Origin: Escallonia rubra
Taxonomy: Eukaryota > Streptophyta > Magnoliopsida > Escalloniales > Escalloniaceae
Reading direction: 5' to 3'
Length of the DNA: 64,000 bases
NCBI GenBank assembly: GCA_033065855.1
Contig: JAVXUO010001035.1
Span: forward strand, 154,317-218,316
Shown here: positions 20,991-58,190 of the stretch, in pieces
Layout of the letters: each line of letters opens with the position of its first letter
Numbering within the stretch: the stretch's first letter is position 1
Made by a program: the position numbers and the translations under genes
Notes under the pieces: generated by a model
Database searches by the model: none
Seen by the model: the letters and a program-made list of their open reading frames with translations, nothing else
What the model was told of the DNA's origin: nothing

Positions 20991-22930
20991 AAACAGGTCT
21001 CTGGATAACATCACGCATGATAATGCATTGAGTTCACATAAGTGAGATTGAAAAGCCTTCATTGAGGGCTTTTTGACAAAGCGAAAGGATGACCAGGCTG
21101 TTAGGTTGGGCTTACCATATATAGGAAAAACGTGGATTGCAGCCCATCTCCCTTTTAAATAGGAATACATGCTATTATTAATTGATTTTTTATTTTTTGT
21201 GCTTAAAGGAAAAATCATTACTCCACGATGATGAACACCCGATGCATTCTCATGCAAGACTTTTGCTAATAAAATTGCTAAAACACCATAAACTTGGATT
21301 ACGTACTCCATATCTTTCTTAGTCGATTAAAACTCAAGTCAATTAGTATATACACGTTCAATAGTAATATAAGCATTATTATTATTATTTTTTAACAAAA
21401 ATGAAAGATATTATATACAAATTATAGTAGACCCTCGAAGACCATGCCACAAAGGTCAGCATGGGGTCTAAGTTCCGCTTGGTATATAACTGATCTAATA
21501 AAGATCTTTCCATTAAATCTCCCTTGCCAAATTCTATTCAGATGCACTCCAAATAAATTAAATCTGATACCTTTGGTTTGTCAAAAAAGAAAATGACAGC
21601 TATTTTTTTTTCATGTATAAGGGGGGTCTTTCTAGTTTCTTCATACCTAGGTTTAGGATGAAAGGTGGGTTGGGTTATGATGGGTTTAACCAACCCAACC
21701 ACCCCGCGCTACAAAAATGGTTTGCCTTCATTTTTGTCGCCACCTGTCAAGCAACCACTACTTGCCACTGACCATTACTCCAACCCCTGCCCCCATCACC
21801 ACTCGCCACTAACCATTACCACTCGCCACTAACCATTACCCCCTACCCTACCTCTGCCCCCGTCACCACTCGCCACGACAACAGTCGACAATCACTACTG
21901 CCGTCACCCAACCATCACTGCAACCGCTCCCAACCATCCACCATCCACCATCACTTTATTTATTGGTTAAAGAAAAAAAAAAAACCATTCTTACTTAGTG
22001 CAATCAATCTATTGAAAACCTACTTACCTTACCATCACTGCAACCTCTCCCAACCATCCACCATCACTTTATTTATTGGTTAAAATAAAATAAAAAGGCA
22101 TTCCTACTTAGTGCTATCAGCCTATTGAAAACCTACTTACCCTCATCCTAACACAATTCAACTTTTTCTCAAGCTAGATTATGTTAAGTTGAAACTGCAA
22201 AAGGTTTACTTGAATCAAGTTGAAACCCACCCTAACTCGCCTAAGTTGCACCACTTTTGCATGTTTATCTTCATAATTGTAGTAAATTCATTTTGTTGGT
22301 AAATACCATAATTTGTCCCCATCGCCCGACACCACCGTAGGCCGCTACCACCACCTATAATAGCCACAACTCCCTCAACCCCTATCCCTACCTTGCTCCC
22401 ACCACCGCGAACACCATCAACCATCCCCCGCCACTTTACTTTTCGTTCAAAATAAAACAATAACATTCTTGTTATGTAAAGTTGATCTACTGAAACCTTA
22501 CTTATCCATCAACCCAATCCAACCAATTTAACTTCTTAGGATATATTTCGTTGGATCTTAATAGCACATGGATTAACTCGGGTCCGTTCGTAGCCCAACC
22601 CACCGAATGTATTTGGGTCAGATGGTGTAATGTGATCTCTTTCGCGTGGTTGCAGTGGAGATTGTTGGGTGCATGACTGCACAATGAGTCCAGCCCACAT
22701 TAAGCCAGACCCACTGTGGGTCAGTCGTTATTCATTAGTGTTCAAACGCGAAGGCCGTTTAGAAATTGTGACCCAAAGAGTTGAAGAGCTCCAAATAAGT
22801 CCTCCACAATCTTCGAAAGAATTCTCAAAAGTCAGATGGAGCAAATCTTGTGAAATGGATCTTATTATTTGCAGATGATATATTTCCTTCCAAGATGTTC
22901 AAATAGATAGGTTTCACTTTAATCTAGCTG
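20991..22930. other. Repeat-rich intergenic region
   Basis: No gene is supported. CCACC/CCATCACC-rich low-complexity sequence lies at 21740-21960 and 22310-22440. A diverged tandem duplication is listed separately at 21940-22140. A TTTTTAACAAAAATGAAAGA-like stretch near 21390 resembles the antisense of a LINE tail, but it is too short to call. Confidence 0.4.
21940..22140. repeat. Diverged tandem duplication, unit about 100 bp
   Basis: Two adjacent copies share CCATCACTTTATTTATTGGT, then an A-rich run, then CTATTGAAAACCTACTTACC. The first ends near 22028 and the second near 22140. The copies differ at scattered positions. Confidence 0.75.
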
Positions 22931-23105: not shown

Positions 23106-23196
23106 ATTAGCACTCAGAATGAAAAGGACTAATGTAATTAGAAATTGAAATCAATGATCTTTCGACCTCATTCATGTTCATCCTCATCGTGCCTAA
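23106..23196 (-). ncRNA. Box C/D snoRNA candidate, third of the cluster
   Basis: Read on the minus strand, a C-like box ACGATGA (plus 23184-23190, one mismatch to RUGAUGA) and a D box CTGA (plus 23114-23117) are closed by a terminal stem. ATTAGGCAC on one side pairs with GTGCTAAT on the other, with one bulge. The RNA would be about 90 nt. The bases before box D (AGTCCTTTTC) could pair with GAAAAGGAUU-type sequence in 25S rRNA, including one wobble pair. The weaker C box lowers confidence, but the spacing from its neighbour supports it. Confidence 0.6.
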
Positions 23197-23301
23197 TCTT
23201 AACCCACCGAGAGCACCTTATTTCCACAATCTGACAATTTTATCTTTACAGAGAAAAAAAAAAAAGAACACACAAGCAATTACTGACACAAGTTAGCGCA
23301 G

Positions 23302-23390
23302 GGAGCGGGCATTCAGAATGAGTAGGAGGTTTGGTATTCCTTTCATGAACAATCGGAATATGTTAAAACAATCATCACTATGCTCGCTCC
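23302..23390 (-). ncRNA. Box C/D snoRNA, second of the cluster
   Basis: On the minus strand, C box GTGATGA (plus 23372-23378) and D box CTGA (plus 23313-23316) lie about 60 nt apart. They are enclosed by an 11-bp terminal stem with one mismatch: GGAGCGAGCAT at the 5' end pairs with ATGCCCGCTCC at the 3' end. The guide directly before box D contains CCTCCTACTCATT, complementary to AATGAGTAGGAGG. A GAGTAGGAGG motif is remembered from eukaryotic large-subunit rRNA, so a 2'-O-methylation guide role in 25S is likely. The exact target needs alignment to the host rRNA. Confidence 0.85.
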
Positions 23391-23461
23391 AACATACGTA
23401 AAGATGGGAGAAAATCGTTCAAGATAGAAGAGAAAACCATCAGAATAATTGGATCAATACA

Positions 23462-23528
23462 TCAGTTTCGACACCCTTTTGGGTGCCTCAGACGACCGTC
23501 GTGAGAAATTAAAATCCAGAATCATCAT
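23462..23528 (-). ncRNA. Box C/D snoRNA candidate, first of the cluster
   Basis: On the minus strand, C box ATGATGA (plus 23522-23528) is followed by a CTGA at plus 23488-23491 and another at 23462-23465, which may be boxes D' and D. The segment before the first CTGA reads TCTCACGACGGTC. This is a 13-nt exact complement of GACCGTCGTGAGA, a universally conserved stretch of large-subunit rRNA downstream of the A-loop. A small hairpin (CACCC AAAA GGGTG) lies between the two CTGA boxes. The terminal stem is poor, so the ends are uncertain, but the rRNA match is strong. Confidence 0.72.
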
Positions 23529-23600
23529 TTGGCTTCACTGATTATCAAAAGAGCAAAAATAAGAAAACGTAAGCATGTGCCGTAAGCTGGTTTCTTCGTA

Positions 23601-23860
23601 TACCTGATGAACCCTAAGAACCAGAAAGCTGCCAACGTAAGTTTCGTTGGGGAAACGAAGGAAGAGGCAATTTATAGAGGACTCAGGAGGTTAGGGTTTC
23701 GGGCATCTCGGATTGGACGAATTCACCCCTTGGGATATGTAGGCTCTCACATGTGAGGCCCGGGGCCGATAGGTCAGAGTAAGCCCAATTCATTCGATCG
23801 TTACTTCCTAGGGTCTAGAGCCTAGACCCTAAGAAGTGCACTTATTTGGCCCATTATCTA
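23601..23860 (-). promoter_or_regulatory. Promoter of the snoRNA cluster (TATA, telo box, site II)
   Basis: On the minus strand, site II elements TGGGCC (plus 23848-23853) and TTGGGC (plus 23783-23788), a telo box AAACCCTAA (plus 23691-23699) and a TATAAA (plus 23671-23676) stand in the order seen in plant ribosomal-protein and snoRNA genes. A transcript would start near 23645. A possible splice donor CAG/GTATAC occurs at plus 23600-23606, so the RNAs could be intronic in a non-coding host or processed from a polycistron. No protein frame follows. Confidence 0.7.
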
Positions 23861-24059: not shown

Positions 24060-24260
24060 ATACAATTTGTTGTTGGCCCACTATAAAAACCTTCTAAAAG
24101 TTAGGGTTTTCCTTTTTTGATTTCTTCTTGTCTTTTGCTTAACTCCATCTCTCGCCGCCCATGCTCATCTCCCATCACCTCTACTTTATGAATCGCCTCC
24201 AACTCTTGGCACTTCCACCTCCTCATGGGGAGGGGGCTGCGGTGATGACGGCATGACGCT
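24060..24260 (+). promoter_or_regulatory. Promoter-like segment on the plus strand
   Basis: GGCCCA (about 24077), ACTATAAAAACC (about 24082-24093) and a telo-box TTAGGGTTTT (about 24103-24112) are followed by a pyrimidine-rich leader. They lie divergent to the snoRNA promoter 250 bases away. The only following frame is 33 codons (ATG near 24160), with no recognised product. It may be a relic of a lost gene, a distal start for the BRE gene, or the other half of a bidirectional promoter. Confidence 0.4.
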
Positions 24261-25186: not shown

Positions 25187-27268
25187 ATGGCCGTCGATCG
25201 TATACCTCCTGTAATCGGCGAACAGCTCAACTACCTCCTCAATCATTCCCCTCTCTCTATCAAGGTAACTAACCTACAAGTTCGCCTTTAACACTTCACC
25301 ATGTAAATGCATGCTTTTTCAAAACCCTAGATCAAGAACTTAAATGCAAGATATTCTTTACCTTTTCAGGTCGAGCAAATGTGGTCCGGGTCCAAAAACA
25401 CTGCCTTACTTGATCGCTTCACCCTGGCTATTCCCGTTTGCCTCGATTATATCAAATGTCAGTATCATTGTTGTTATATATGAGCAAACTATCGCAACAT
25501 TGCATACTTTTATTCGACCGGTTGCATAACTTCTGTTCATTTTTGCGAATCCGTAGCATAGAATATGAACGCGTAACACTCAGTACACTCATTGTTCCTC
25601 CCCTGGTCTGACACTGGCTTGTCAGACGATGCTCATTTGATCTGTAATTACTAGTTGAATCTTTTTTATCTGTAATTACTGTTCGTGTCCACAGTAATTA
25701 CACAGGAATTTGCAAAATGTTGTACGGACAAAGATTGTGAAACAGAGGGAGTACTTGTTATTTGTCGGACAATATTATTAAAGTTTGGAGGATTAAATGC
25801 AGGGGATGTCATATACAATGCACAGTATCCCTTGACAGCACCGGATATCATATTCGGGCCTGAAGATGAGGGTTTCCGTCCGTTTCATGGGGTTGGGGAA
25901 GCGGGGGAGTCAAGGTTGCCAAGGAATAGCTTGTCTGATTGGAGTTATAAAGACCCGACTCGGCTTTTGTCTCTCATTCTTGAACTTAGGTTTGGTGTTG
26001 TGCAATTACTCTATTTTGAGTTTTATCGAGTCCAGCAGTTTAACAAGGGTGAATAACTTCCTGTTGTCTGATGTTAGGGGTTTATATTTGGCGCACCAAA
26101 GAAAGCGCGTTGCAGAAGTTGACGATCCCAGATTGACATTCGAAATTAGCACCATATTTGCAAGGGAGGCAAGTTTTGATTTACTTAATGCCGGTTTATT
26201 AGATAAATTGGAAAACTTTTATAATTCTTAAGTCAAGCATATGTGTGTGTGTGTGGGGGGGGGGGGGGGGGGGGGGGGACCTTTTTCCATTAAAACTTCA
26301 CTTTTGGAAATAGTTTTATGTGTGTGCTTGTGATTCTGTAACTAGAATTCTGCGAATGATTGCTGCAAATAAGCTTACTATATGTTGTCAGTTGGGGCGA
26401 TGAATGTCTTGCCATTTAAGTACGTAATATAAGTGACTACTTTAAAATCTAATGCATATGGCCTACCTGTGAAAGTGTTTGTGCAAATCCCGTCAAAGCT
26501 GTGTGCTTGAGTAATTTGGACTTCGGAGTCTTCTAAATTGGCTCTTGTTTGTTACTGGGAGTAAATGCAACGATACGGTAGGCGTCAGATTTCACATTTT
26601 TGCACCTGAAGAAGCACGACTAGGTGCTCTAATTAGCACCGTGAGACATTATGAACATAACTGGGGAAGTATGGGACCAGCGTTCTGCCACACTGTCCCG
26701 ATGCCTTGTCTTGCAGCGATGCACGGATAAAAGTGTGTTGGTTAAATAGCTGGTTTTATTTTGGGAACCTTTTCAGGTTGAGTATGAACTTTACCAGCAT
26801 TTAAGGAACTAGCTTTTAGGAAATGGATTGGAAACCTTTGCCACTATTTGAGAAGTTGATAGAGAGATTTTGAATCTACGTGTCTCCCCCTCTCAATCCC
26901 CCTTTTCTTCACCTTTACAGATTATCAGAGTAATAGGTTGTCATCTTGGATAGAACTTTAAGGTCTTGGTGGGGTAATGTGCTTCCCAGTTACCTCTAAC
27001 CACTATTTCCTTTTCCCTGCGCTTTGTTTTGAAATTTTTTTTCCCCGTTTGTTGCATTATGCAGAGACCACATTGCTGTTACAGAAATTACTAAAAAGTT
27101 TGAAAGAAAGACATATCTCTCTACAGAAAGATGATGAGAACCTGAACACATTGGACAATATGGCTTATAATGTTGTGCATGATGTGTATACTGAAATTAT
27201 TCTTACCTGCATTTTTCTAGGCAGAGAGACATCTGTATGTGCATATAGCACGTATGCTGTATAATATA

Positions 27269-37334: not shown

Positions 37335-37440
37335 TTATTTATATATGCACACACTTGGGGCTAGGGTTTTGCTGTGATGTCTGTTGGGCCGGCTGGCGGC
37401 TTCTGACTTCTTAACTCTTAAGGTTGCCTTCGGCCCACCA
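37335..37440 (-). promoter_or_regulatory. Promoter of the single snoRNA gene (TATA, telo box, site II)
   Basis: On the minus strand, TATATAAAT (plus 37337-37345), a telo-box core AAAACCCTAG (plus 37361-37370) and two site II-type GGCCCA/TGGGCC motifs (plus 37385-37390 and 37432-37437) repeat the layout of the cluster promoter at 23.67-23.85 kb. TATA lies about 147 bases upstream of the snoRNA. No protein frame follows. Confidence 0.7.
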
Positions 37441-41997: not shown

Positions 41998-42176
41998 GGA
42001 TCCCCTGCTGTAACCATGGGTTACAGCAGGGTGCTGTACCCAGCAATGTGAGAGGGGGAAGAAATAGAGGGGGAAGAGAGAAAGGGGAATGCAAACTATG
42101 GTTACTCTCTCTCTTCCCCCTCTATCATTGCTGGGTACAACACCCTACTGTAACCCATGGTTACAGTAGGGAATCC
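41998..42176. mobile_element. 179-bp hairpin MITE with palindromic ends
   Basis: The whole element is an inverted repeat. The left arm GGATCCCCTGCTGTAACC matches the complement of the right end, GGATTCCCTACTGTAACC, and similarity continues through TACCCAGCAATG and the AGAGGGGGAAGA tract (arms of about 70 bases). Each arm also holds its own palindrome, CTGCTGTAACC/GGTTACAGCAG at 42005-42029 and CTACTGTAACC/GGTTACAGTAG at 42145-42169. No target duplication was found. Confidence 0.8.
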
Positions 42177-56949: not shown

Positions 56950-57589
56950 TGCGCATTGTCGCTAAGAGTTATCTCGACCTTTCTTTTTGCAACAAGTTGA
57001 TGCCAAGAAAAGTGGGTTCGTACTTACGTGGAGGTGCCACAAAGGCTGCAGTCCGTGTCAGCTTCCAAGTATGCAAAGTGAGAGACAACAAGGACGGAGT
57101 AAGGGCTGAGAGCAAGGCTTCCTAGACAGGCCATGAGGAATGGCAGTGCTGCGAAGGCAAGGCTAAGACGAACAGGGCCGGCAGTCGATAGTCCAAGTCA
57201 GGGTCCGAGTCGAGGTCCAATGTTACGATCTTAAGCTATGTCCAATTTTATGTTTCTCTCTCTAGAATCCAAGAGCTCTCCAATTCTAGAGTGAGAAAGT
57301 GATTTTTGTGAGAATGAAGAAGAAAACCCCATTTGATTTGTAAAGTTCACTATTTATAGGAAACAGTGTGCTTATGTCATAAAGTGCCACATGTCGTCCC
57401 CCGGGAGTGACACGTCACCAGGGGGTCCCAAAATACCGGCCCGTCCCGGAGTGACCCGGGGGTCATTGCCCTGGTGGTGTTGAAGATCGACAGTAACATA
57501 AGCGGACATGGTCGCAGCTCAGTGCTCCGAGTCTGTGGCGAGGGGTCCTTGTGTCGGAGCCCCCTGTGACTGTGACGACGATGGCTATG

Positions 57590-58190
57590 AGGTTGTGAGC
57601 CCATCCAGGTACGAGGCCGAAGCCCCCTTGTGATTGAGACGACGATGGCTATAAGGTTGTGAGCCCATCCCGGTACGAGAACGAAGCCCCCATTTTGATT
57701 GAGACGGCGATGGCTATAAGGTTATGAGCCCATCCCGGAGCCCCCCTTTTGATTGAGATGGCGATGGCTATAAGGTTGTGAGCCCATCCCGGTACGAGGC
57801 CGAAGCCCCCCTTTTGATTGAGACGGCGATGGCTATAAGGTTGTGAGCCCATCCCGGTACGAGGCCGAAGCCCCCCTTTTGATTGAGACGGCGATGGCTA
57901 TAAGGTTGTGAGCCCATCCCGGTACGAGGCCGAAGCCCCCATTTTGATTGAGACGGCGATGGCTATAAGGTTGTGAGCCCATCCCGGTACGAGGCCGAAG
58001 CCCCCATTTTGATTGAGACGGCGATGGCTATAAGGTTGTGAGCCCATCCCGGTACGAGGCCGAAGCCCCCATTTTGATTGAGACGGCGATGGCTATAAGG
58101 TTGTGAGCCCATCCCGGTACGAGGCCGAAGCCCCCCTTGTGATTGAGACGGCGATGGCTATAAGGTTGTGAGCCCATCCTGGTAGCATGC
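57590..58190. repeat. 65-bp minisatellite, about ten copies
   Basis: The unit contains GGCGATGGCTATAAGGTTGT, GAGCCCATCCCGGTACGAGG and CCGAAGCCCCC. Most copies are nearly identical. One, at about 57715-57770, is shortened. The high identity implies recent expansion compared with the surrounding fossil. Confidence 0.92.

Follow-up and report, generated by a model that had tools for sequence, protein, structure and literature searches.

A probable polycistronic box C/D snoRNA gene cluster in Escallonia rubra

Plant polycistronic small nucleolar RNA (snoRNA) genes, as described in PMC4660826, combine a telo-box and site II elements (TeloSII) with a TATA box, are transcribed by RNA polymerase II, and yield precursors that are cut endonucleolytically by an RNase III homologue and then trimmed exonucleolytically. 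We analyzed a 64,000-nucleotide stretch of Escallonia rubra contig JAVXUO010001035.1 (the window), in which the minus strand of positions 23106-23860 is very probably an ordinary plant snoRNA gene cluster. Its likeness to those genes extends to the TATA box, the telo-box AAACCCTA, site II elements of the form TGGGCY, and tandem C/D snoRNAs without a long open reading frame; no difference was noticed in the sequence. A first-pass annotation had described three C/D candidates behind such a promoter and had denied the system any novelty. The observation is confirmed and the interpretation supported, also in that this is no new kind of system.

The telo-box and both site II elements lie upstream of the TATA box (Table 1), in agreement with the TeloSII and TATA arrangement published in PMC4660826. 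TATAAA occurs 86 times when the two strands are taken together. By a counting rule set after the locus had been seen, 2 of these sites (23676 and 37343, each on the minus strand) have a telo-box plus two or more site II elements in the 250 bp upstream of them, against a mean of 0.08 qualifying sites in 100 order-1 Markov control sequences. Transcription would start near 23645, roughly 30 nt downstream of the TATA box, and all three snoRNAs presumably share one precursor. Between the site II elements sits a 16-bp inverted repeat (23803-23837, 94% complementary) containing TAGGGT/ACCCTA. A fourth RNA in the leader was rejected, with Rfam scores (E up to 10) well below cut-offs (e.g., DdR16, 21 vs 70) and a leader fold z of -0.56; a 6S-Flavo match farther upstream (28.3 vs 85) is noise.

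Box C/D character is evident in the boxes close to the termini (C, RTGATGA; D, CTGA), a terminal stem, and guides of at least 10 bp near D or D' that obey the D+5 rule. Two of the three candidates pass curated Rfam gathering cut-offs and the third falls narrowly below. The first unit exceeds its cut-off of 45 by a wide span, matches model positions 1-93 of 93, and retains the boxes and D' guide, differing by 8 extra bases, five of them in the hairpin loop after D'. The 25S complement claimed for this unit proved genuine, fits the D'+5 rule, and by spacing would address the Arabidopsis 25S C2960 site (Table 1 of PMC8053127).

The middle unit clears its cut-off (45) by only 1.5 bits. The match (23386-23313) covers model positions 1-72 of 72, with ACCUCCUACUCAUUCUGA as in the consensus but with 4 extra and 2 absent bases; the outer stem lies outside the model, and the comparison covers the part within it. 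Its fold z is -2.73, and by spacing its D guide may direct modification of Arabidopsis 25S A1377. Four of the ribosomal RNA (rRNA) comparison records (L001, L002, L003 and L005) contain eukaryotic rRNA though filed as viral or bacterial; L004 is a Planomonospora contig in which the large-subunit (LSU) motif is present too.

The third unit scores below its cut-off of 45 (E 9.8e-5 for 64 kb) and is thus probably an RF00329 homologue without formal membership. Model positions 1-88 of 88 are matched, and the unit has the family's variant of the C box (AUGAGGA), its guide GUCCUUUUCAUU and its inner stem, whereas a 12-nt deletion and a 14-nt insertion set the unit apart. Other models score lower (snosnR60_Z15, 22.6 against a cut-off of 41; snoZ105, 17.6). 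It is highly unlikely that the locus is merely the silent remnant of a duplicated snoRNA cluster that has since decayed.

Table 1. Features on the minus strand of the window.
Feature	Positions	Strand	Details
Site II element	23848..23853	-	TGGGCC
Site II element	23782..23787	-	TGGGCT
Telo-box	23691..23699	-	AAACCCTAA
TATA box	23670..23677	-	CTATAAAT
First unit, snoZ161_228 C/D snoRNA	23435..23535	-	Rfam RF00328, 69.6 bits, E 4.9e-12
D' guide	23494..23506	-	TCTCACGACGGTC; 13 bp with LSU rRNA GACCGUCGUGAGA
Middle unit, snoZ105 box C/D snoRNA	23302..23390	-	Rfam RF00145, 46.5 bits, E 1.3e-4; includes 11-bp terminal stem
C box	23378-23372	-	
D box	23316-23313	-	
D guide	23317..23329	-	CCTCCTACTCATT; 13 bp with LSU AAUGAGUAGGAGG of L002
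Third unit, snoZ162-like box C/D snoRNA	23107..23196	-	Rfam RF00329, 41.5 bits
C box	23187-23181	-	ATGAGGA; one deviation from RTGATGA, also in family consensus
D box	23117-23114	-	
Candidate D guide	23118..23130	-	AGTCCTTTTCATT
Second-locus promoter	37336-37437	-	TATA 37343-37336; telo-box 37369-37362; two site II

The setting is likely plant nuclear intergenic because of the Pfam results for window frames: in a first scan, 6 of 10 exceeded cut-offs (cyclophilin, a LIN-like U-box protein in two parts, BSP peptidase, and beta-tubulin in two parts), a BRE-like frame (25685-26056) fell below its own, and three had no match. Some plant snoRNAs are known to be intronic (PMC4660826), and the cluster might accordingly belong to a minus-strand host gene that annotation has missed, lie within one of its introns or exons, and be freed by splicing without its own promoter. 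However, neither of the closest open frames on the minus strand with 70 codons or more (22215-22508 and 25452-25697) has a Pfam match, and none of 10 further frames scanned, of 34 listed, reached the Pfam cut-off (bHLH_PER weakly, 16.5 vs 27), leaving a host gene very improbable.

Upstream, a promoter-like plus-strand set (24075-24110) faces away from the cluster, with site II at 24075-24080, CTATAAAAA at 24081-24089 and a telo-box at 24101 downstream of TATA; only a short frame follows, and the sole Rfam match in this region, Plastid-psbA-2, is far below cut-off (20.4 vs 55.8). The other qualifying TATAAA site precedes what is probably a second, snoR72-like snoRNA gene (37184-37089, minus strand; RF00208, 42.2 bits vs 43, E 0.0046 for the window; fold z -3.5), whose candidate D guide forms 11 Watson-Crick pairs with LSU in L002 and 9 in L005, counts made without a shuffle control. 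Positions 42004-42170, scoring for MIR5084 on both strands (58.5 and 57.5 vs 110) and for further miRNA families also below cut-off, are probably a palindromic mobile element. A minisatellite at 57567-58184 (65 bp, 9.7 copies) contains 10 site II-like AGCCCA motifs.

The cluster at 23106-23860 thus looks like a small gene yielding three guide RNAs that direct the chemical marking of rRNA; the families of all three are already catalogued, and the cluster appears to be a normal housekeeping unit.
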